From assembly GCA_016873395.1 (NCBI GenBank), contig VGXG01000024.1, positions 1 through 33,125 on the forward strand: a stretch of 33,125 nt of DNA, written 5' to 3'. Shown here piece after piece: positions 9,744 through 32,073 of this stretch. The notes below the pieces were generated by a model, which saw only the letters and a list, made by a program, of their open reading frames with translations, was not told where the DNA came from and made no database searches. This stretch comes from Nitrospira sp. GTDB lineage: Bacteria > Nitrospirota > Nitrospiria > Nitrospirales > Nitrospiraceae. Both the position numbers and the translations under genes were made by a program. Positions within the stretch are counted from its first letter, which is position 1, and every line of letters starts with the position of its first letter.

Positions 9744-10252
9744 CCGAGTGGCTGATCGCAACGAGCTTTCTGCTCGTTGGCGGGCTGGGGTGGTCCTGGC
9801 CGGGAAAAAGAACGGGGCAGAAGAAGGCCGGCCAGGCCTCCGTGCCGGCCGACATCTCGCTGCAGGCCCAGCCGTTGCTGACCGAAGCCGAGGCGTTCTT
9901 TTACAATCTGCTGCGCTTGGCCGCCCAGGATCACTACCTGGTCTTGGCGCAGGTGCCTTTGTGGTGCCTGCTCGACGTCACGGCATCAGATCGTGACGTG
10001 CAGGCCTCATTTCTGAAACGCATCGCACTCAAGCGGGTTGATTTCGTCCTGGTCCATCCGGGTACGAGGACCGCCGTCAAGGTAGTCGAACTGGACGACG
10101 GTTCGGACGTCTCCCCCGGGCGGCAGGCGCGGAATCGGCTGGTAGAGGCGGTCTTGAACGAAGCCGGGATCGAGTGCATCCGCCTGAAGGCCCCCCAACC
10201 CTCTACGGTCTCCCAACTGGCCAAGCTCCTGGGCATTGAGCCCCCCGATTAG
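9740..10252 (+). CDS. DUF2726 protein with N-terminal membrane anchor
   Basis: A 170-residue protein with an N-terminal hydrophobic helix (about 4-21) and a DUF2726 domain. The domain features are PLLTEAEAFFYNLLRLAAQDHYLVLAQVPL, then KRIALKRVDFVLVHP and VVELDDGSDVSPGRQARNRLVEAVLNEAGIECIRL. The last part resembles the acidic core (VDF...ELDD) of restriction-endonuclease-like folds, so a nuclease-like fold is possible. It overlaps anmK by ATGA, which suggests translational coupling. Its stop codon TAG is immediately followed by a 202-bp mobile palindrome. Confidence 0.82.
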   Translation: MTEWLIATSFLLVGGLGWSWPGKRTGQKKAGQASVPADISLQAQPLLTEAEAFFYNLLRLAAQDHYLVLAQVPLWCLLDVTASDRDVQASFLKRIALKRVDFVLVHPGTRTAVKVVELDDGSDVSPGRQARNRLVEAVLNEAGIECIRLKAPQPSTVSQLAKLLGIEPPD

Positions 10253-10454
10253 CAGGATGCTGAAAAAGTCCGCCAGCTTTGTTCTCGCATCGCTTAGAGG
10301 CTCCACGTACGGCAAAGAGTACGCATCGCCTCCTCGCTCGCTGCGGCCGCGCTGGACGGCCTTTTTGACCATCCTGCAGGGCCACTGCGCCGGCATCCGA
10401 GACGTTCTCGCTCCGACGGTTACAAGGGGACAAGAACAGTTTTTCAGCAGCCTG
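10253..10454. mobile_element. 202-bp MITE-like palindromic element, copy A, target duplication TTAG
   Basis: It begins CAGGATGCTGAAAAAG and ends TTTTTCAGCAGCCTG, so the ends are imperfect inverted repeats. A second, inner inverted repeat pairs the start with GGCCTTTTTGACCATCCTG about 125 bases in. The centre has CGTAC...GTACG. TTAG occurs immediately on both sides (10249-10252 and 10455-10458), a likely 4-bp target duplication. The left TTAG contains the TAG stop of the DUF2726 gene, so insertion left that gene intact. Copy B at 26987 has the same length. The A5/T5-flanked stem could also terminate transcription in both directions. Confidence 0.8.
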
Positions 10455-10516
10455 TTAGACCGTTCCTCCGGCGGATACACCGGGCCCCGGCGTCGCGTCG
10501 TTCCTCGTCGGTCCGC

Positions 10517-11103: not shown

Positions 11104-11234
11104 CCATACCGCGCTTGCTAGAAAGTAGTCAGTTTTCAGTCATCAGTCATCAGTCTTCAGTCATGAAACTGAAAACCGAGCACTGAGGACTAATAACTTT
11201 TCCTTTGCTGTGAGCGGAGAGTTATTTTGCCTCC
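11104..11234 (-). repeat. Leader-type palindromic repeat, copy 1 (adjacent to DUF3365 gene)
   Basis: Read toward the gene on the minus strand it has three blocks. The first is GGAGGCAAAATAACTCTCC then CAGCAAAGGAAAAGTTAT. The second is a palindrome of 7-bp words (CAGTNNN, then NNNACTG). The third is CTAGCAAGC followed by GGTATGGAGG, which provides the ribosome binding site of the cytochrome gene. Related copies are at 11255, 18526, 27427 and 29376. AATAACT upstream can pair with AGTTATT. Confidence 0.85.
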
Positions 11235-11254
11235 CGTAGGCTTAAATTCTTCAA

Positions 11255-11369
11255 GCTTGCTAGCGAGTAGTAAGTTTTCAGTCATCAGTCTTCAGCCATG
11301 AAACTGAAAACCGAAAACTGAGGACTGATAACTTTCCCTTTGCTGTGAGCGGAGAGTTCCTTTGCCTCC
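11255..11369 (-). repeat. Leader-type palindromic repeat, copy 2 (tandem to copy 1)
   Basis: Same blocks and orientation as copy 1, but it ends in GCAAGCTTGAAGAATTTAAGCCTAC and runs into copy 1 instead of a gene start. Copy 4 (27427-27620) has the same connecting sequence, so tandem units share a fixed joint. Confidence 0.85.
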
Positions 11370-11524
11370 AGCGAGCTTTGTTTGAATGCCAACACAGCCG
11401 TCTTTGCCCGGATCAGACAGGGGGCCGATGATACTGCAAAGCAGAAGACTGCACAAGGGATCGATTCCGACTGCGTAACGTGGTACAAAGGACTCGGCAA
11501 CTTCAGACAACAGGAGGGTAGCCG
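11370..11524. other. Intergenic stretch, nothing recognised
   Basis: About 155 bases between the tandem repeats and the next gene. It holds the AGGAGGG ribosome binding site (about 11512-11518) of the gene at 11525. No promoter boxes with good spacing were identified. Confidence 0.5.
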
Positions 11525-18412: not shown

Positions 18413-18525
18413 GGCGACGACCCTGCTACGCTACCGGCTGATGTATAATTGACCTCCTCCACATGTCGGAAGTCTGTAAGGAAAGGGGCCTGGCCGCGAC
18501 CAATGGGCGGAGGATGATATTTACT
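18413..18525. other. Intergenic part of the 280-base gap before msrB
   Basis: It contains an isolated TATAAT at 18444-18449 without a good -35 box at the right distance. Nothing else was recognised. The leader-type repeat copy 3 fills the rest of the gap. Confidence 0.4.
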
Positions 18526-18650
18526 GGAGGTAAAATAACTCTCTGCTCACAGCAAAGGAAAAGTTATCAGTCCTCAGTTTTCGGTTTTCAGTTTCATGAC
18601 TGAAGACTGATGACTGAAAACTGACAACACGCTAGCAAGCTTGGTATGGG
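18526..18650 (+). repeat. Leader-type palindromic repeat, copy 3 (adjacent to msrB)
   Basis: GGAGGTAAAATAACTCTC, CAGCAAAGGAAAAGTTATCA, then the palindrome of 7-bp words centred on CAGTTTCATGACTG, then GCTAGCAAGCTTGGTATGGG. It ends within 10 bases of the msrB ATG, and its terminal GGTATGGGGGG supplies the purine-rich ribosome binding site. Confidence 0.88.
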
Positions 18651-18658
18651 GGGCACCC

Positions 18659-20048: not shown

Positions 20049-20912
20049 TCACGGCCCTGGATTTACCGCCTCATAGAGCGCTGAATAATCTATGTCGGCC
20101 AGGCCTCGCTCAATGGTCTTCGTCAAAAGTGTGTGCGCACCCTCCAGGCTGCTCGTGCATAGGCCAAGAGCGCCAGCTTCCTTAAGAAAGAGCTCCACGT
20201 CTTTCAGCAGGTGCTTGGTGGAGAAGTTTGGGTTGGCATAGTCGCGTGTGAGCAGGCGCGGAAGCTTCTTCTCAAAGGCCGGGGCAAAGAGCGCGCTCTG
20301 CTTCAGGATGGCCATGAAGGTGTCCACAGGGATACCCTCTCTCTGCACCAGCCCCAGGCTCAACGAGAAGGCGGCGATCTCTGCTGCGATCAGTTGGTTC
20401 AAGGCCAGCTTGAGCGCGGCGGCCTGGCCGACTTGGCCGATCAGGCGCGGCTCCGGCCCGAAGCATCGGAACAGGTCGGCCCAATTGGTAAATTGCTCCG
20501 GCGTCCCGCCCACCATGACCAGCAACTTGCCGGCCTGCACCTCCGCGATGCTGCCCAGCACCGGCGCTTCCAAATAGTCCCCGCCTGCCGCCTGCACGTC
20601 GCGTTGGATCGCCTGGCTTTCCCGTGGGCCGACGGTCCCCATCTGGATCACGGTCCGCCCCTTCAACTCCTGCCGCACCGTGCTTGAGAGCAAGACCGTT
20701 CGAATGGCTTTGGCATCGGCCAACATCAGGATGACGCAGAAGGCAGCGCGCACCGCTTCTTCCGGTCGTTCGGCAACAGTAATCCCTGCCTTTGCCAAGT
20801 CCGCAACCTTGTCTCTCGTTCGGTTAAAGACCGCGATCGCATGGCCGGCGGCTTTCAGCCGCTCGGCCATCGGCCGTCCCATCAGTCCGGCGCCCAAGAA
20901 CGCAATGTTCAT
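20049..20912 (-). CDS. Beta-hydroxyacid dehydrogenase family oxidoreductase (GLYR/HIBADH-like)
   Basis: A 287-residue NAD(P)-dependent dehydrogenase. The Rossmann motif IAFLGAGLMGRPMAERL is at the N-terminus, the substrate loop is APVLGSIAEVQAGKLLVMVGG, and the catalytic Lys lies in GQAAALKLALNQL. FSTKHLLKDVELFLKEA is a typical C-terminal motif. Relatives reduce succinic semialdehyde or glyoxylate or oxidise 3-hydroxyisobutyrate, and the substrate here is not defined. It is divergent from the RuBisCO-like gene, with about 140 bases between starts, which may mean a shared pathway. Confidence 0.92.
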   Translation of the reverse strand: MNIAFLGAGLMGRPMAERLKAAGHAIAVFNRTRDKVADLAKAGITVAERPEEAVRAAFCVILMLADAKAIRTVLLSSTVRQELKGRTVIQMGTVGPRESQAIQRDVQAAGGDYLEAPVLGSIAEVQAGKLLVMVGGTPEQFTNWADLFRCFGPEPRLIGQVGQAAALKLALNQLIAAEIAAFSLSLGLVQREGIPVDTFMAILKQSALFAPAFEKKLPRLLTRDYANPNFSTKHLLKDVELFLKEAGALGLCTSSLEGAHTLLTKTIERGLADIDYSALYEAVNPGP

Positions 20913-21051
20913 AGAAAGTCTCCGTTACATCTTTTGGGCGATGTGGCTCGCGTCAATCATCGGGGGAATTCTACCGTTTCTGCTCATGATCGTCACGCCT
21001 TGTTTGGGAGCCCCTGGCATTTCGCTTGGTTCCCCGGTACTCTTGCAGGTC

Positions 21052-22215
21052 ATGAGCGCTGACCTCTCGTCTCACCTGTCCGGCCTCCGCTTCACCGTGG
21101 ACTATCACCTTACCGGCACGGAAGCAGAGACTCGTGCGAATGCGGAGGTACTCTGCATCGAGCAAACGGTCGAGGCGCCTCTGGAGATCCTGCCGGCCGG
21201 CCCGATCCGCGAGCAGGTGCTGGGGCGGGTGGAGAATTTCACAAGCTGCGCGGCCTGCCGCCATGAGGCGGTCATCAGTTATCCCGTGGAACTGCTGGAT
21301 GGGACCTGCGCGCAACTGCTCAATGTGGTCTTCGGCATGAGCAGCCTCAAGCCGAGCATCCGCCTGGCGCGGCTGCACCTGCCTGACGAGATACTAAAAG
21401 GATGGCCCGGTCCCCGCTTCGGCCGGGCCGGATTGCGTCGTTTGGTCGGCGTGCCTCAGCGGCCCCTGGTCTGTGGAGTGCTCAAACCCCTGGGCCTCGC
21501 TCCTGCCGACCTTGCCGAGTTGGCCTACCAGTTCGCCCTGGGCGGCGTTGATCTCGTCAAGGATGACCAGGGACTTGCCGACCATTCCTTCTGTCCGTTT
21601 GAGGAGCGGGTGGCCCGCTGCGTGGAGGCGGTGGCAAGGGCAAACCAAGAGACCGGCCGCATCTGCCTCTACGTGCCGCATGTGACTGGGCCTTGGGAGG
21701 CGCTGCGCCGACGTTCCCTCTTTGCCAAGCAGGCCGGCGCCGGCGGCCTGCTGATCTGTCCGGGCCTCGTCGGCTTCGATACCCTCCGTGACGTGGCTCG
21801 GGATGAGGCCATTGCCCTACCGATCGTCAGCCATCCGGCCCTGCTCGGAAGTTTTATCGTGTCTCACGAGAGCGGACTCGCTCCCTCAGTCGTCTTCGGC
21901 CAACTGCCCCGCCTCGCGGGAGCCGATGCGAGCATCTATCCAATCTATGACGTGGGCTATGCCGTGAGCCGGGAGGACTGCCGAGTGGTGGCCTTTGCCG
22001 CCGCCGAGCCGATGGGCGCCCTGAAACCGATCTTTCCGACCGCAGCCGGCCGCATGGGATTGGACCGGGCGCGCGAGATGAGCGAGCTGTATGGATCAGA
22101 GGTGCTCTTCATCCTGGGCAGCGGCCTCCAGCGGCATGAGGAGGGCTTGGTGAAGGCCTGCCGGACCTTTGTGGATTTGGTGGCCCGCTTTTCACAACAG
22201 CCAGCCAAGGCCTGA
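21052..22215 (+). CDS. RuBisCO-like protein (form IV)
   Basis: A 387-residue homologue of the RuBisCO large subunit. GVLKPLGLAPADLAELAYQ carries Lys145 (equivalent to catalytic Lys175), and GGVDLVKDDQG carries Lys170 (the carbamylated Lys201) but Gln173 in place of the metal-binding Glu. IVSHPALLGSF has the conserved His. Loop 6 reads FPTAAGRMG without the catalytic Lys334, so CO2 fixation is not expected. Such proteins act as isomerases, enolases or decarboxylases. ATG 21052 was chosen because homology starts at RFTVDYHLTG. The frame is open further upstream without support. Confidence 0.9.
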   Translation: MSADLSSHLSGLRFTVDYHLTGTEAETRANAEVLCIEQTVEAPLEILPAGPIREQVLGRVENFTSCAACRHEAVISYPVELLDGTCAQLLNVVFGMSSLKPSIRLARLHLPDEILKGWPGPRFGRAGLRRLVGVPQRPLVCGVLKPLGLAPADLAELAYQFALGGVDLVKDDQGLADHSFCPFEERVARCVEAVARANQETGRICLYVPHVTGPWEALRRRSLFAKQAGAGGLLICPGLVGFDTLRDVARDEAIALPIVSHPALLGSFIVSHESGLAPSVVFGQLPRLAGADASIYPIYDVGYAVSREDCRVVAFAAAEPMGALKPIFPTAAGRMGLDRAREMSELYGSEVLFILGSGLQRHEEGLVKACRTFVDLVARFSQQPAKA

Positions 22216-23145: not shown

Positions 23146-23775
23146 CTACTTCGGCTGCGTCGTATAGCGCAGGTACGGCTTCACCGTTCGGTAGCCGGGG
23201 AAGAGTTTCTTCGCTTCATCGTCCGGGACCGCCGGCGTGATGATGCAATCTTCGCCGTGCTTCCAATTCACCGGAGTCGCAACCTTGTGCTTCGCCGTGA
23301 GTTGCAGCGAATCGATGGTCCGCAGCAACTCGTCGAAGTTCCGTCCGCAGGAGGCCGGATAGGTCAGCATGAGTTTGATCTTCTTATCCGGTCCGATGAC
23401 GAACACCGACCGCACCGTCATGTTGTCCAGCGCGTTCGGGTGGATCATGTCGTAGAGCGTGGCCACCTTCCGCTCCGGATCGGCGATCAGCGGATAGGCC
23501 ACGGTGCATTGCTGGGTTTCATTGATATCCTTGATCCACCCCTTGTGCGAATCCAAGGGGTCCACGCTGATGGCCAGTACCTTCACGCCGCGTTTCTTGA
23601 ACTCCGGCACGATCCTGGCCATGTAGCCCAATTCGGTCGTGCAGACCGGCGTGAAGTCCTTGGGGTGCGAGAAGAGGATGGCCCAGCCCCCGCCCAGCCA
23701 CTCATGAAAGTTGATGGTCCCCTCCGTCGTTTCCGCCGTGAAGTTCGGCGCCTCGTCTCCCAGTCTTAGTGCCAT
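23146..23775 (-). CDS. 1-Cys peroxiredoxin (Prx6 type)
   Basis: A 209-residue peroxidase that removes peroxides. The peroxidatic Cys45 is in HPKDFTPVCTTELG. The Prx6 subgroup is indicated by VKVLAISVDPLDSHKGWIKDI, by TYPASCGRNFDELLRTIDSLQL, and by the extended C-terminus GEDCIITPAVPDDEAKKLFPGY. ATG 23775 follows AAGGAG. An in-frame ATG 18 bases upstream lies within that ribosome binding region and was rejected. It probably defends against oxidative stress together with the exported MsrB elsewhere in the window, which is an inference. Confidence 0.94.
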   Translation of the reverse strand: MALRLGDEAPNFTAETTEGTINFHEWLGGGWAILFSHPKDFTPVCTTELGYMARIVPEFKKRGVKVLAISVDPLDSHKGWIKDINETQQCTVAYPLIADPERKVATLYDMIHPNALDNMTVRSVFVIGPDKKIKLMLTYPASCGRNFDELLRTIDSLQLTAKHKVATPVNWKHGEDCIITPAVPDDEAKKLFPGYRTVKPYLRYTTQPK

Positions 23776-23860
23776 GGCTCGCTCTCCTTTCAACTATGGA
23801 TGTGATGAGTGGTTTCCGTGGATGGTCGAAAACAAGTCTAAGAGTAGCGCTATTCCGGGT

Positions 23861-23905: not shown

Positions 23906-24268
23906 TCAGCGATTTGCGACGTCCGCCTGCGAGTCCACGATCATCGTGCCGGTCATGCCGGCGTGACCGCGCATCTTGCAGCGGTACAGATAGACGCCGG
24001 CCGGCGCAAGGAGCGTGAGCGTGATGGAGCGGCCGGGGGCGATCTTGATCGTGCCCTGACCGCGAACGTCCGCCGGTTCCACGGCGAGCAGACGGACCTG
24101 ATGGTCCGTCAGGAGCGGGCTGGTGAACTCATGGGGTTCCCGCCCCTCATTCACCACCAGCAGGCGGATGGGACGGGCCGCGTGGAGGCGGACTTCCGGA
24201 GGGTCGAAGCGAAAGTCTTGCGCTGCGAGCCGGACATCTTGCACGCTGGAATCACAGGCATTCAGCAA
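23906..24268 (-). CDS. Cupredoxin-like copper protein, N-terminus lost
   Basis: A blue-copper-like domain of about 120 residues. VQDVRLAAQDFRFDPPEVRLH is the first strand region. Copper ligands are expected at His in REPHEF, Cys in LYRCKMRGH, and His and Met in GHAGMTG. Only LLNAC, a possible lipobox remnant, precedes the domain, starting at TTG 24268 after an upstream in-frame TAG. A normal export signal is therefore missing. It overlaps the end of the truncated SulP gene by 17 bases, so a deletion probably removed its 5' end. It may not be expressed or exported properly. Confidence 0.75.
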   Translation of the reverse strand: MLNACDSSVQDVRLAAQDFRFDPPEVRLHAARPIRLLVVNEGREPHEFTSPLLTDHQVRLLAVEPADVRGQGTIKIAPGRSITLTLLAPAGVYLYRCKMRGHAGMTGTMIVDSQADVANR

Positions 24269-24941
24269 GGGGGCCTAAGCCCACATAAGTCACGATGCCG
24301 CCGGCAAGACCGACGATCGGAGCCGGCACCGCCTGCGAGATGCTGGGGGCCAGCACCATAGCGGCCACGCTGATCCCGCCGACGAGCAGGCCGGGCCACT
24401 GCCACAGCGAGGGCGAGGTAAGGCCGGCCCACAGGCCTGTCCCCAGGGGAACGCCCAAGAGCTTCGGCAGTTGCCCCATGACGATCAGCAGGCCCACCGC
24501 GCTCAGGAATCCGGCCACGACCGGATAGGGAATGTATTTGATGAGCCGGCCCCCGCCGGCGGCGCCGAAGAGGAGCTGCATGGTCCCCGCCAGCACCACG
24601 ACCAGCGTCGACAGCAGGAGGATCTGCTCCGGACCCAGGGCACCGGCCTGCGCCGCGCCCGCGGGTCTCTGCAGGTCCATCGCCAAGGCTCCCATCAGGG
24701 CGGCAGCCGGAGCGCAGGGGGCCGAGACCAGGCGCGGCGTCCCTCCGAACAGCGGCGCTATGATGCCGACGGCGATCGTTCCGATCATGCCGGCCAGCGC
24801 CCCCTGCGCCGCGTACGACGACCCCAGCGGCGCGTAGATCACCAGACCGAAGGCGATCGCGGAGGGAAGGGCGACCAGCATCGCCGCGAGTCCGCCCCAG
24901 AGGTCGCCCATCCGGCTGCCTGTGTGAGCCTTCTTCAGCAT
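24252..24941 (-). pseudogene. Truncated SulP-family anion transporter
   Basis: A 229-residue product that covers only the first part of a SulP permease, which is normally 500-700 residues. Clear features are MGDLWGGLAAMLVALPSAIAFG, LFGGTPRLVSAPCAPAAALM, and YIPYPVVAGFLSAVGLLIVMGQLPKLLG. After GGIVTYVGLG the frame ends in PLAECL at the junction with the cupredoxin gene. The remaining membrane segments and the STAS domain are missing, so activity is unlikely. The first codons (MLKKA) match the end sequence of the 202-bp palindromic elements. The genuine start may be ATG 24911. Confidence 0.82.
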
Positions 24942-24945
24942 CCTG
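24928..24945 (-). mobile_element. End fragment of the 202-bp element family, flanked by CTAG
   Basis: On the minus strand CAGGATGCTGAAGAAGGC matches the left end of elements A and B with one or two changes, and is preceded by CTAG (24949-24946), a target-type tetranucleotide. It begins 3 bases after the TGA of the methyltransferase gene. Only the end is present, fused to the truncated SulP gene. Confidence 0.5.
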
Positions 24946-24952
24946 CTAGGGA

Positions 24953-25582
24953 TCAGGGCTTCCTGGCGATCAGGCTGCTATACGCCGCCTTCCCGTCGTC
25001 GTAGGCTTGGTAGCGAATGACCGTAAAGTCTCTGAAGAGATCCAGCAGTTCATTGGGCTGAAGGAGGTACTCTTTACGGAATTTGGGATTGTATTTGAGG
25101 TGGTCGAGGTTGTAGGTCTCCATCACCACCACGCCGCCGCTCTTCAGCGCGCCTTTGATCTGAGGCACGAGGTCGCGTTGCAGGTAGTAGAGGCAGAGCA
25201 CCACATCGTAGACGTTCGGCTCCAACCGGGCCTGCTCCAAATCAACGACGCGGGTCTCGATGCCGACCTGCTGCTCCTGGGCCAGTTGCCGGGCCTTGGC
25301 GAGTCCCTTTTCGGAAATGTCCAATCCGATCACCTGGAACCCCTGAGTGGCGAGGAACACCCCGTTGCGTCCCTCCCCCATCGCCAGGTCCAGGGCCTTG
25401 CCCTTCGGCAGCAGATGCACGTGCTCTTTCAGAAAAGCGATGGGCTCCTTGCCGAAGACGTACCCTTCCTTGGCATATTTCTCGTCCCACCGCTCCTGAT
25501 CCTTCGGATCGGCGAGGACGGAACCGGACCAGGTAAGAACTGCAACAAGCAGGAGAAAAAAGCTCAAGGCCTTTGACAACAT
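24953..25582 (-). CDS. Class I SAM-dependent methyltransferase with a signal peptide
   Basis: A 209-residue protein that starts with a clear signal peptide (MLSKALSFFLLLVAVLTWSG, then SVLADPKDQ). The following TehB/thiopurine-type methyltransferase has LPKGKALDLAMGEGRNGVFLATQGF (motif I), VIGLDISEKGLAKARQLA (motif II), and YDVVLCLYYLQRDLVPQI. Export of a SAM-dependent enzyme is unusual because SAM is not expected outside the cytoplasm. The segment may instead be an anchor. The substrate is unknown, and metalloid or thiol methylation is possible by family. The truncated SulP gene follows. Confidence 0.87.
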   Translation of the reverse strand: MLSKALSFFLLLVAVLTWSGSVLADPKDQERWDEKYAKEGYVFGKEPIAFLKEHVHLLPKGKALDLAMGEGRNGVFLATQGFQVIGLDISEKGLAKARQLAQEQQVGIETRVVDLEQARLEPNVYDVVLCLYYLQRDLVPQIKGALKSGGVVVMETYNLDHLKYNPKFRKEYLLQPNELLDLFRDFTVIRYQAYDDGKAAYSSLIARKP

Positions 25583-25723
25583 CCCTCGGCTCCATGGACA
25601 GCGGGCGCTATTCTATCGGCTGCTCTTCACGGGGGTCAATCAAGAAACGCAACAGTCAGACCATGCCAGGCAATCACCGCGATCGCCTCGACCTCGACGA
25701 GTCCGGACTGCTCAGAGGAGTGG
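25583..25723. other. Intergenic stretch, nothing recognised
   Basis: About 140 bases upstream of the methyltransferase gene and downstream of the small Cys protein. No repeat or promoter with good spacing was seen. Confidence 0.4.
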
Positions 25724-25873
25724 TCAACCGGCTTTGTCGAAGAGTCGGCGGTTCTTGATCGGCGGGCTTGCCATTTGTTCCCGCTCCACCAGCTTCTGGC
25801 AGGCCTCGCAGAGCTCCCCGTGTGTCTCCGCGTAGAAGGTCTCGGCGACCTCGCCGCGCCGCTCGCAGATCAT
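25724..25873 (-). CDS. Small Cys-containing zinc-ribbon-like protein
   Basis: A 49-residue ORF: MICERRGEVAETFYAETHGE, then LCEACQKLVEREQM and a basic tail. It looks like a treble-clef zinc ribbon (C...LCEAC) in which the first pair is reduced to a single Cys. Reading may begin further upstream at GTG 25897 (VAIGLRAVMICE). Coding potential is suggested by the family-like YAETHGELCEAC. No strong ribosome binding site was seen. It could be a small regulatory protein or a decayed gene. Confidence 0.5.
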   Translation of the reverse strand: MICERRGEVAETFYAETHGELCEACQKLVEREQMASPPIKNRRLFDKAG

Positions 25874-26060
25874 GACCGCCCTCAGGCCAATCGCCACCCA
25901 GGGTCGGCCTCGATCATCCCCGGGCGCCGGTCAAGAGTCAATCGTGGCGCTCAGAAATGATCCGCAAAGCTGGGTGGATCGTGGGAGGGGCAAGGCGCGG
26001 AAGGAGGTTGACTCCGGCCGGTCAGGGCGCTAGCGTGGGGGGACAACGACGCTGCCGAAT

Positions 26061-26073
26061 ACGGGAAACCCGT
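26061..26073 (+). promoter_or_regulatory. Small hairpin just before the CDF start codon
   Basis: ACGGG-AAA-CCCGT forms a perfect 5-bp stem ending 4 bases before the ATG at 26078, where the ribosome binding site should be. It may lower translation. No other Shine-Dalgarno is evident. Confidence 0.3.
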
Positions 26074-26077
26074 CACG

Positions 26078-26986
26078 ATGGCCACTCCGCGAAAAGACAT
26101 CCTGGCCAAATACAAGACGATCGAGCGGTCCGTCCGGTTTAATTTCCTGAACGGAGCCCTCTCGTTTTCGCTGAAAATCTTCGCCACCTCGATCGCCAAC
26201 TCCGTGACCCTCTTCTCCGACCTGCTGCGCAGCGGCTCGGACACGTTCGCAGGCCTTCTGTCCTGGCTGACGATGCGCCGGATCGCTTCGGGGAAGGCGT
26301 TGGCGTACGATTACGGCTACGGCAAGCTGGAGAATCTAGCCAGCCTGACCGTCGCCGTGACGATGCTGGTCTCCTTGTCGGTCGCCTTGTACGGCGCCGT
26401 GGTGCGGTTCCGGGAGCCGGTGCTCATCCGCCAAGCTGGCCTGGGCTTCTTCGTCGCGCTCTATTCTGCCGGGATCAACGCCTGGTCGTGGAGACGGACG
26501 TTTTTGCTGGCGAAACGCGAACGCTCATCGATCCTCGAAGCGCAATGGCACAACCTCCGCACGAAGACCATTGCGAATTCCTGCGTCGTCGTGTCGCTGG
26601 GATTGAGCCTGACGCTCCAGCAGTATCCCTGGGCTGAGTACATCGACCCCCTCTTCTCCCTGGTGCTCTCCGGGTTTCTGGCCTATTCCATCTACAGCAT
26701 CGTGTCGATGAACGTGTCGGACCTCCTCGATCGGGCCTTGGAGGAATCCCTGCAATTGGTCATCCTGCGGGAGTTGGCCGCCTATTTCGACGACTACGTT
26801 GCCTTCCACGGGATGCGGTCCCGACGGTCGGGGAAATCCGTTTACATCGACCTGTTCCTGGAATTCGACGGAACGAAAACCATGGCGGAGGTACAGAAGG
26901 TCATCGACGCCATGCGAGCCGGCCTGGAGCAGAAAATCCCGGGCAGCCATGTTGCCATCGCCCCCGCTACCTCGCGCGTCGTCTGA
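26078..26986 (+). CDS. Cation diffusion facilitator family transporter, atypical metal site
   Basis: A 302-residue membrane protein with six predicted helices and a C-terminal cytoplasmic domain (about 225-300). SLKIFATSIANSVTLFSDLLRSGSDTFAGLLS covers helices 1-2, DYGYGKLENLASL is the conserved loop, and EAQWHNLRTKTIANSCVVV lies in helix 5. Classical family members have two His/Asp-xxx-Asp pairs. Here Arg51 replaces the first residue of the first pair (Asp55 kept) and Thr142 replaces the Asp of the second (His138 kept). Metal choice or function may therefore differ. The stop TGA directly adjoins a mobile palindrome. Confidence 0.88.
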   Translation: MATPRKDILAKYKTIERSVRFNFLNGALSFSLKIFATSIANSVTLFSDLLRSGSDTFAGLLSWLTMRRIASGKALAYDYGYGKLENLASLTVAVTMLVSLSVALYGAVVRFREPVLIRQAGLGFFVALYSAGINAWSWRRTFLLAKRERSSILEAQWHNLRTKTIANSCVVVSLGLSLTLQQYPWAEYIDPLFSLVLSGFLAYSIYSIVSMNVSDLLDRALEESLQLVILRELAAYFDDYVAFHGMRSRRSGKSVYIDLFLEFDGTKTMAEVQKVIDAMRAGLEQKIPGSHVAIAPATSRVV

Positions 26987-27188
26987 CAGGATGTTGAAAA
27001 AGGCCCCCAGCTTTGTTCTCGCGTCGCTCAAAACCTTGACGTACGAGAAGAGTACGCCTCGGCTTCTCGCTCGCTGCGGCCTCGCTGGGCGACCTTTTTG
27101 ACCATCCTGCAGGGTCTTGGGAAAACCGTGCAAGCCCTTGCGGTTTCTGGCAATGGAACTTCTTTCTTTGGAGTTTTGGAACAGCCTG
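26987..27188. mobile_element. 202-bp MITE-like palindromic element, copy B, target duplication CTGA
   Basis: It begins CAGGATGTTGAAAAAGG and ends AACAGCCTG. The first 128 bases align well with copy A at 10253, and the remainder is diverged except for the end. CTGA precedes (26983-26986) and follows it (27189-27192), a 4-bp target duplication whose TGA is the stop codon of the CDF gene. Both copies have identical length and the same zero-distance placement after a stop codon. Confidence 0.8.
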
Positions 27189-27426
27189 CTGAGTGCTCGT
27201 CTGTCTCTCCCCTAGCCATAAGCTTTTCCCATCCTTAAGCACTTTTAATCTCCCCTTAATGGCCGTCTCATCTTCCGCTGCTAGGCTGTGCCAACTTGAT
27301 GAGCCAAATCGACTCCGAAGCCCCCTCACCTTAGTCCTCTCCCCCTGGCAAGGGGGAGAGGGGAGGGTGAGGGGGTCGGTCGTTGGTCCAAATAGATTGG
27401 AACAGCACTGGGCTTCACGCCGGATC
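27189..27426. other. Gap between element B and the leader repeat
   Basis: No gene was recognised. It holds the GC-rich palindrome at 27321-27375. The rest is AT-richer, with no clear promoter. Confidence 0.5.
27321..27375. repeat. GC-rich palindrome of the CCCCCTCACC/GGGTGAGGGGG type
   Basis: CCCCCTCACC...CTCTCCCCC pairs with GGGGGAGAG...GGGTGAGGGGG around TGGCAA. This is a common dispersed intergenic palindrome in many bacterial genomes and may fold strongly in RNA. Confidence 0.75.
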
Positions 27427-27620
27427 ACAGCAAAGGAAAAGTTATCAGTCCTCAGTGTTCGGTTCTCAGTTTCATGACTGAAGACTGATGACTGAAAACT
27501 GATGACTGAAAACTGACGACTCGTTAGCAAGCTTGAAGAATTTAAGCCTACCGGTGGCAAAAAAACTATCCGCCACGAGTTGATCGAACGTGGCGGTTCA
27601 AGCGAAGCTTGGTATGGGGG
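27427..27620 (+). repeat. Leader-type palindromic repeat, copy 4 (extended, adjacent to a zinc-ribbon gene)
   Basis: CAGCAAAGGAAAAGTTATCA and a longer run of 7-bp words are followed by TTAGCAAGCTTGAAGAATTTAAGCCTAC. A partial second unit follows, in which the word palindrome is replaced by the hairpin CCGCCACG (27570-27577) / CGTGGCGG (27589-27596). It ends AAGCTTGGTATGGGGG just before ATG 27628. Confidence 0.85.
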
Positions 27621-27831: not shown

Positions 27832-28605
27832 CTAGATTGCGAACTCTGCCCAGAGAAAGGTATGGTCGGAGGGGTCCTTGGCCCGGCGCGGCTCGAGGTC
27901 CACGGCCACCTCGGTCACTTTCTCAGCCAGGGGCATCGTCGCCAGGATGTGGTCGATCCGCCAGCCCTTGTTGGCCTCCAGCGAGCTGGGCTGGCGGTAG
28001 TCCCAGAAGGTGTACTGCTGGCGGTCCGGGTAGAGTTTCAAGAAAACGTCCGCAAACCCCCAGGCGACCGTCTCTGCATAAGCCTTGCGCGCGGCTTCAT
28101 GATAGCAGACGTGCTGGAGGTGCTTCTCCGGGCTGTGGACGTCGATCGGGCGTGGCGCCACGTTCATGTCCCCGCACCAGATCGCCGGCATCTTCGGGGA
28201 GAGGTGCTTGTCGAAGTAGCGGCGTAACCGCGTGAACCATTCCAGCTTGTACTGATACTTGGGCGAATCGATCAAGTAGCCCTGGGGGATGTAGGTGTTG
28301 ATGATCGGGATCCCCTGATACGTGATCCGAATCAGCCGCGCCTCATCCGGCTCGCCTCCGTCGTCCAGCCCGTAAGACACCTGATCCGGCGGCTGCCTGG
28401 TCAGCACGGCGACGCCGTTATAGGCCTTCATGCCGCGGAAAGTCAGGTGATAGCCGGAGGGGGCCAGGGCCAGCGACGGAAAGTCTTCGTCCTGGACCTT
28501 GGTTTCCTGGAGACACAGCACATCCGGCCGGTGCTGCTCGAGCCAGTCCAGCACCAGCGGGAGACGTTTGCGAAGCGAGTTCACGTTGAAGGTCGCGATC
28601 TTCAT
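27832..28605 (-). CDS. xthA: Exodeoxyribonuclease III / AP endonuclease
   Basis: A 257-residue DNA repair enzyme of the exonuclease-endonuclease-phosphatase fold. MKIATFNVNSLRKRLPLVLDWL and VLCLQETKVQD contain the metal-binding Asn and Glu. YNGVAVLTRQ, NTYIPQG, WCGDMNVAPRPIDVHSP, GWRIDHILAT and SDHTFLW carry the remaining catalytic residues, including the final Asp-His pair. It cuts at abasic sites. The first 4 bases overlap the stop of the upstream PilZ gene (ATGA), so the two are translationally coupled. Confidence 0.96.
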   Translation of the reverse strand: MKIATFNVNSLRKRLPLVLDWLEQHRPDVLCLQETKVQDEDFPSLALAPSGYHLTFRGMKAYNGVAVLTRQPPDQVSYGLDDGGEPDEARLIRITYQGIPIINTYIPQGYLIDSPKYQYKLEWFTRLRRYFDKHLSPKMPAIWCGDMNVAPRPIDVHSPEKHLQHVCYHEAARKAYAETVAWGFADVFLKLYPDRQQYTFWDYRQPSSLEANKGWRIDHILATMPLAEKVTEVAVDLEPRRAKDPSDHTFLWAEFAI

Positions 28606-29147
28606 CCCGGGCGGGGCGCCTTCTCCTTGAGAGCGGATTCGCTGTTCTCGGTGCGCAGAAGCCGTTCCGCGTAGCTGCCTTCCGCCTGGAGAAATTCGGC
28701 CAGCCGCTTGTCCTCCCGCGCCGCGCGCAGAAACTTGAACCTGATTCCCCTCCCGCCGACCGAGCGGACGATCGCGGCCAACTCCAGGGGCGGGCCTTCT
28801 TCAGCGATGGAGAGCCGCAGGTACATAATATCGTCGATGCCCACCGCCATCTGGCTGTGGATCAGGCAGCCGCCCATCGAAATATCCACCAAGGTTCCCT
28901 CCCCCCGCACCCGATCTCCCGAGAAGGACAAGGCGAGCCGGACCGGAATCCGGCGGTGCTCTCGCCGCTCCAGAAGGTGCCGGGGATAGGTCCGCCCCCA
29001 TCGAAAGGCCAGGAACCGGTGGGTGCAGAACTGGCACCGAAAAGGCAGGAACGCCAGCAGGCCGGCCAGACGGTCGCTGAGCGAGCGACAGGGGGCTCTG
29101 AGCACGGAATCCTTTCCACACTGGGGACAGGTCAATGGTCGCATCAT
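28602..29147 (-). CDS. PilZ-domain protein with N-terminal zinc ribbon
   Basis: A 181-residue protein. CPQCGKDSVLR and FRCQFCTHRFLAFRWG give two Cys pairs for a zinc site at the N-terminus. The PilZ domain follows with RREHRRIPVRLAL (RxxxR) and DISMGGCLIHS (DxSxxG), the c-di-GMP contacts. It probably changes the activity or location of a partner in response to c-di-GMP. Cotranscription with xthA (4-base overlap) is conserved here but functionally unexplained. A second PilZ domain occurs in the fusion gene at 22229. Confidence 0.88.
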   Translation of the reverse strand: MMRPLTCPQCGKDSVLRAPCRSLSDRLAGLLAFLPFRCQFCTHRFLAFRWGRTYPRHLLERREHRRIPVRLALSFSGDRVRGEGTLVDISMGGCLIHSQMAVGIDDIMYLRLSIAEEGPPLELAAIVRSVGGRGIRFKFLRAAREDKRLAEFLQAEGSYAERLLRTENSESALKEKAPRPG

Positions 29148-29375: not shown

Positions 29376-29498
29376 CCATACCAAGCTTGCTAGAGAGTCG
29401 TCAGTTTTCAGTCATCAGTCTTCAGTCATGAAACTGAAAACCGAACACTGAGGACTGATAACTTTTCCTTTGCTGGGGCGGAGAGTTCTTTTGCCTCC
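29376..29498 (-). repeat. Leader-type palindromic repeat, copy 5 (adjacent to small membrane protein gene)
   Basis: Read on the minus strand: GGAGGCAAAAGAACTCTCC, CAGCAAAGGAAAAGTTATCA, the 7-bp word palindrome, then CTAGCAAGCTTGGTATGG, ending at the start region of the gene at 29367. Nearly the same sequence as copies 1-3. Confidence 0.88.
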
Positions 29499-29549
29499 AG
29501 TGAAATATCAGCCCCGCACGGTACACCGAATGACCGGGCTTGTCCATTT

Positions 29550-31357: not shown

Positions 31358-31542
31358 TGTATCTCCGACACGGTGTCAAGTCACGGCTGCTGCAGGCCGC
31401 AGCGATGAACCAGAAGGCGCATCCAAGTCCGTGTTAACGCACATGTTTTTCAAACCCCTTGACCGCTGCTTGGAAAAGCCCTACAAACTCCCTCATTGTT
31501 TTCATCATTCAGCTTTGCACGTTTAATTCGGGAGGAGAAATC

Positions 31543-32073
31543 ATGAAGGACTCCGTACCGACGATGAATCTGCTGCTGGTCGGGGTAGCTGCGTTGCTGG
31601 TCTCCACCATTTTTATTTTGGATCTTTTCACACCAATAGGCGTCACGATTCCTCTGTTGTATACCATCCCACTCCTGATCACCTTACTGTCCCCGGAGCG
31701 GTCGTTGTTTTTCACCACAGCCGCCGCCTCGGCCCTGTTGACTATCCTGGGCCTCTTCCTCTCGGCCCCCGGCGGGATTTTCTGGATGGCTTTCACCAAC
31801 CGCGCGCTGGCCGTCCTATCCATCGGGGTGGCAACGGGTTTTTGCCTGCTCCATAAGAAAGTGGCAATGCGGCTCAAGAAGCTGGAAGACCTGCTGCCTT
31901 TCTGTTCAGGTTGCAAACGGGTTCGTGACGACCGGGGCTACTGGAAGCAGTTGGAGCTATACCTGGAAGAGCATGCGGTCACACATTTCAGCCGGGGGCT
32001 CTGTCCGGAGTGCCTGCCGAAAGAGCACGACACGGTGTTGAGCACGCAGGACGCTAGCCCGCATTATTCATGA
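31543..32073 (+). CDS. Membrane protein with C-terminal CxxC...CPEC sensor-type motif
   Basis: A 176-residue protein with three or four hydrophobic helices (about 8-100), then a short coiled linker KKVAMRLKKLEDLL and CSGCKRVRDDRGYWKQLELYLEEHA...GLCPEC. This Cys-bearing motif often follows PAS or membrane domains in histidine kinases and response regulators, but no kinase follows here. ATG 31543 has GGGAGGAG upstream. The last codons SPHYS-stop lie inside the terminal repeat of a mobile element, so the original C-terminus may have been replaced. A redox or metal-sensing role is inference. Confidence 0.82.
   Translation: MKDSVPTMNLLLVGVAALLVSTIFILDLFTPIGVTIPLLYTIPLLITLLSPERSLFFTTAAASALLTILGLFLSAPGGIFWMAFTNRALAVLSIGVATGFCLLHKKVAMRLKKLEDLLPFCSGCKRVRDDRGYWKQLELYLEEHAVTHFSRGLCPECLPKEHDTVLSTQDASPHYS

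Follow-up and report, generated by a model that had tools for sequence, protein, structure and literature searches.

The 33,125-nucleotide stretch of Nitrospira sp. DNA analysed here (the window, which is the whole of contig C24 in a draft genome of 2.34 Mb and 97 contigs) carries a well-supported gene-truncating junction between a SulP transporter gene and a cupredoxin gene. This junction probably arose when a rearrangement disrupted two genes that have no relation to each other. It would have placed the first (5') third of a SulP-STAS-cNMP transporter gene just ahead of the lipobox cysteine of a lipoprotein cupredoxin gene, with loss of the SulP remainder (approximately 515 residues) and of the cupredoxin leader, and the same event, or one connected with it, probably cut an element of a 202-bp family at the upstream edge of SulP. 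The two truncations were observed directly; it was likewise observed that the assembly does not contain the missing part of SulP and that the gene neighbourhoods in relatives differ. The features of the region are as follows.

23146-23793, minus strand: peroxiredoxin gene, downstream of the cupredoxin frame (Pfam)
23906-24268, minus strand: cupredoxin frame, 120 aa from TTG, beginning at the lipobox (LLNAC), without a signal peptide
24252-24941, minus strand: SulP fragment, 229 aa, approximately the first 223 residues of a protein of about 740 aa; the final codons run into the cupredoxin gene
24255-24273, no strand: junction interval; the likeness to SulP is certain as far as 24273, and that to cupredoxins begins with certainty at about 24262
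24929-24949, minus strand: element end with CTAG flank; 17 bases of the 202-bp inverted-repeat element, providing the ATG of MLKKA
24953-25582, minus strand: methyltransferase gene (TehB-like), the upstream neighbour (Pfam; comparison with G011)
26078-26986, plus strand: CDF cation efflux gene, paired with the methyltransferase gene both in G011 and in the window (Pfam; comparison with G011)
26983-27192, plus strand: complete 202-bp element (26987-27188) with CTGA on each side, abutting the end of the CDF gene
27832-28605, minus strand: exonuclease/phosphatase gene, a usual cupredoxin neighbour in relatives (Pfam; neighbourhood comparison)
28602-29147, minus strand: PilZ-like gene, a usual cupredoxin neighbour in relatives (label from the sequence alone, no Pfam scan)

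Transcription on the minus strand runs from the methyltransferase gene (25582-24953) through SulP (24941-24252) and the cupredoxin (24268-23906) to the peroxiredoxin (23793-23146). The frame listing reproduced the positions of the SulP and cupredoxin frames given in the preliminary description, together with their 17-base overlap at 24252-24268. A promoter-like site was seen upstream of the methyltransferase gene (25639-25610). Elsewhere in the window, a 511-aa frame (20680-22215) that we take, from its sequence, to be RuBisCO-like lies beside a 6-phosphogluconate-dehydrogenase-like gene.

The SulP frame matched the Sulfate_transp profile over positions 3-185 of 380 (Pfam, E 5.6e-19), and so does not contain a complete membrane domain. 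The closest homologues among the 61 genomes searched were in G049, G019, G004 and G037. Compared with SulP (SLC26) transporters that carry STAS and cNMP-binding domains, the first 223 residues are 55-65% identical to same-order homologues across the conserved membrane core, but the second half of the membrane domain, the STAS domain and the cNMP domain are missing. Two full-length homologues (739-741 aa) contained Sulfate_transp, STAS and cNMP_binding domains in the Pfam scan; no STAS domain was detected in the 229-aa frame. In the best full-length homologues (frames of 589-761 aa), similarity to the window frame stopped at residue 223-224, and in the alignment it ended after GLG (residue 223), any likeness of the last residues being at most fortuitous. 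The 80 related SulP loci kept from a scan of a species collection had frames of at least 700 aa in 73 cases; the end of the locus cut the frame in six and one was interrupted. These lengths agree with the earlier claim that SulP is cut after about 225 residues. The SulP gene of G037 is itself divided between two contig ends.

No separate remainder of the missing SulP part was found when all contigs of the genome's own assembly were searched with a full-length homologue, and none turned up at the end of another contig. Only two Sulfate_transp matches exist in this genome, the second being a SulP gene on C20 that is 42% identical to the fragment over the matching part. The full-length homologue gave three weak extra matches, on C36, C57 and C8. 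They were rejected as the remainder: two are general cNMP-type stretches (25-31% identity) and one was unconfirmed by a second comparison.

What is left of SulP is well preserved. None of 33 near-invariant sites (at least 95% conserved in 78 homologues) is changed in the fragment; at the same sites, 60 of the 78 homologues have no change and the other 18 have between one and seven. Seven long helices were predicted from hydropathy, and a low-confidence fold model (mean pLDDT 58) showed seven long helices and a single short helix. The SulP fold comprises fourteen helices on a two-repeat plan, of which seven are half. The piece lacks the STAS and cNMP domains along with the second half of its membrane fold; it would therefore make no working transporter, and most likely it does nothing. 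Since it is undecayed (0/33 sites changed), the event would appear to be recent, unless the fragment remains in use or the assembly is wrong at the join.

The cupredoxin frame matched Cupredoxin_1 (PF13473) over profile positions 19-104 of 104 (Pfam, E 7.9e-9; score 35.9 bits, cut-off 27). Set against the lipoprotein cupredoxins of this family, the domain is whole, 61% identical to the G002 protein, and retains the lipobox cysteine and the copper-site residues, but the gene has no signal peptide and begins two residues before NAC. The His, Cys, His and Met residues that align with those of relatives are all kept; we take them to be type-1 copper-site ligands, copper binding being presumed from type-1 sites generally. 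In each of the 17 cupredoxin relatives aligned, a leader is present and its final cysteine aligns with Cys5 of the window protein; in the latter, no signal peptide precedes the lipobox cysteine and only four residues lie ahead of it. The cupredoxin had previously been described as lacking its export signal, and this comparison bears that out. An upstream start that would restore a leader was ruled out by an in-frame stop immediately upstream. If translated at all from its TTG, the cupredoxin would be cytoplasmic and its normal role would be lost.

On the minus strand the junction includes five consecutive C (CCCCC), at which the SulP and cupredoxin frames are offset by one base, and the stretch that follows slightly resembles both genes. 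Consequently, with short bases shared, the exact joining point is ambiguous and is given as 24255-24273. The join lies outside any repeat, and a search for the 202-bp element found no remnant at the cupredoxin junction. On the SulP side the break lies close to where the seventh predicted helix ends, and the lipobox comes directly after.

At the opposite edge of the SulP fragment, the minus-strand bases at 24929-24949 are a 21-base match to one end of the 202-bp element and differ by a single base from the usual GAAAAAG form. The pattern used for this element end found 23 sites in the genome within two mismatches, and a reversed-pattern control found none; the pattern was composed with the 24929-24949 copy in view, and its zero mismatches there are not independent. 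This match carries a CTAG flank and supplies the ATG of MLKKA, and the earlier suggestion that MLKKA derives from the element beside CTAG proved correct. No second inverted end was found within 330 bases of this copy, and the CTAG flank is on one side only. Two complete copies with both ends are present in the window, at 10249-10458 (flanked by TTAG and TTAG) and 26983-27192 (CTGA and CTGA). Among the 23 copies of this end in the genome, six have an outer end 201-231 bases away with the same 4-base flank, while four, including that at 24929-24949, are without a second end within 330 bases. Homologues differ freely in both the length and the sequence of what precedes the conserved GD-WGG motif. 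Because these N-terminal tails vary so widely, the SulP start may be uncut at the element edge.

Several other properties of the repeats were observed. The 4-base target duplications of the 202-bp family are TTAG, CTGA, CTAA, CTGG and CCAG, and all four one-ended sites adjoin CTAG. The inner part of the element (approximately 124 bp) is likewise bounded by an inverted end. The methyltransferase-CDF pair has element ends on both sides in mirrored orientation (24929-27192). A second family of imperfect CAGTCATCAGTC-type repeats occurs in both orientations at 11116-11378, 18524-18652, 27425-27573 and 29376-29508. We consider the 202-bp element to be MITE-like; the literature listings and the opening parts of abstracts contained nothing specific on it or on the junction.

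The neighbourhoods of both genes were compared with those in relatives. In G002, G012 and G016 the cupredoxin gene lies between the PilZ-like and exonuclease genes and is transcribed opposite to both, and in G020 it adjoins the PilZ-like gene, again in opposite transcription. These neighbours were not seen in the other four of the eight cupredoxin stretches examined (G011, G008, G014 and G032), that of G008 being at a contig end. The ancestral place of the cupredoxin gene may have been beside the PilZ-like and exonuclease genes. In the window these two genes are 4.3 and 3.6 kb from the cupredoxin, respectively, and on the same strand, which is reversed relative to the relatives. The PilZ-like gene is also on the opposite side of the exonuclease gene (27832-29147) compared with G002, G012 and G016, which again points to local rearrangement. 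In G011, as in the window, the methyltransferase and CDF genes are a divergent pair, but there they are without SulP and on a different contig from the cupredoxin. The peroxiredoxin gene is sited apart from the cupredoxin in all eight relatives searched. In the stretches read from G019, G004, G049 and G037, the related SulP genes are flanked by none of the genes that surround the junction in the window; the G037 contig does contain a match to the window frame at 31438-32073. As the neighbours differ between the window and the relatives examined, the region is a mosaic in which the junction joins loci that lie apart elsewhere.

Comparison with the sulP and cupredoxin loci of relatives, which the preliminary description had proposed as a check, did not reveal the same short pair. 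SulP was present in three of 175 family genomes (E 1e-30 or better) and the cupredoxin in eight (E 1e-25 or better), and only G000 has both. No cupredoxin match was found in the flanks of the 80 related SulP loci elsewhere. A conserved operon of short SulP and cupredoxin was ruled out by these counts (none in the 175 family genomes besides G000, none in the 80 flanks).

The junction could be an artefact, the contig having misjoined two loci whose genes are both whole in the cell. The draft state of the assembly (97 contigs), the lack of decay in the SulP piece and the restriction of the arrangement to one genome would all fit such an error. It is nevertheless unlikely, as the join is outside a repeat with few bases shared, the missing SulP part is on no other contig, and the contig that carries the cupredoxin also has its usual neighbours less than 5 kb away, a proximity that a random join would not produce. 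Improbable, too, is a simple deletion between once-neighbouring SulP and cupredoxin genes. Both genes are on one strand, head to tail, and a single event would take exactly the 3' part of SulP and the cupredoxin leader, but the genes were never neighbours in any relative with flanks that were searched, and the orientation of the cupredoxin is reversed with respect to its conserved neighbours. On both of these grounds rearrangement with loss is the better fit, though a deletion might still have been the final step following an earlier move. Of the deletion scar proposed earlier, what stands is a junction that truncates both the SulP and cupredoxin genes, not its origin by simple deletion. An element-mediated origin of both boundaries is likewise upheld at most for the upstream SulP edge (24929-24949), no element having been found at the cupredoxin junction.

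The arrangement might also have been kept because it works: a seven-helix SulP half and the cupredoxin would be made together, the latter exported via a frame shift at the five-C run. The cut at the end of the seventh predicted helix, the lipobox that follows at once, the one-base frame difference at the C run and the unchanged conserved sites would fit such an arrangement. This is very improbable: it occurs in no relative, the fold model is of low confidence, selection cannot be shown from one lineage, and the coincidences are few and were spotted after the fact. Even fainter is the prospect of a new chimeric membrane cupredoxin, in which the seven-helix SulP half would anchor the copper-protein domain, a slip or a sequencing difference at the C run joining the frames so that the lipobox comes after the seventh helix.

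Rearrangement with loss is thus the preferred reading, although an element remnant at a single boundary counts against it, as do the draft contig, the lack of decay (equally expected of a product in use or an assembly error) and the four of eight cupredoxin stretches without the PilZ-like and exonuclease neighbours. As the genomes compared include no sister species with an intact arrangement, any order of events would be tentative. The case resembles gene truncation by rearrangement beside a small inverted-repeat element in its broken gene ends, in the one edge that lies on an element end and in the complete copies with 4-bp target duplications nearby. It differs from that type in that the second edge is without an element, and the part of the element in the event is putative.

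For this organism, the finding most likely means two disabled genes, an ordinary kind of gene breakage and a clean, recent example of it in the lineage. In this genome it would be wrong to annotate either frame as a working sulfate transporter or an exported copper protein. The 202-bp element family with its target duplications may help in the study of genome rearrangement in the group more generally.
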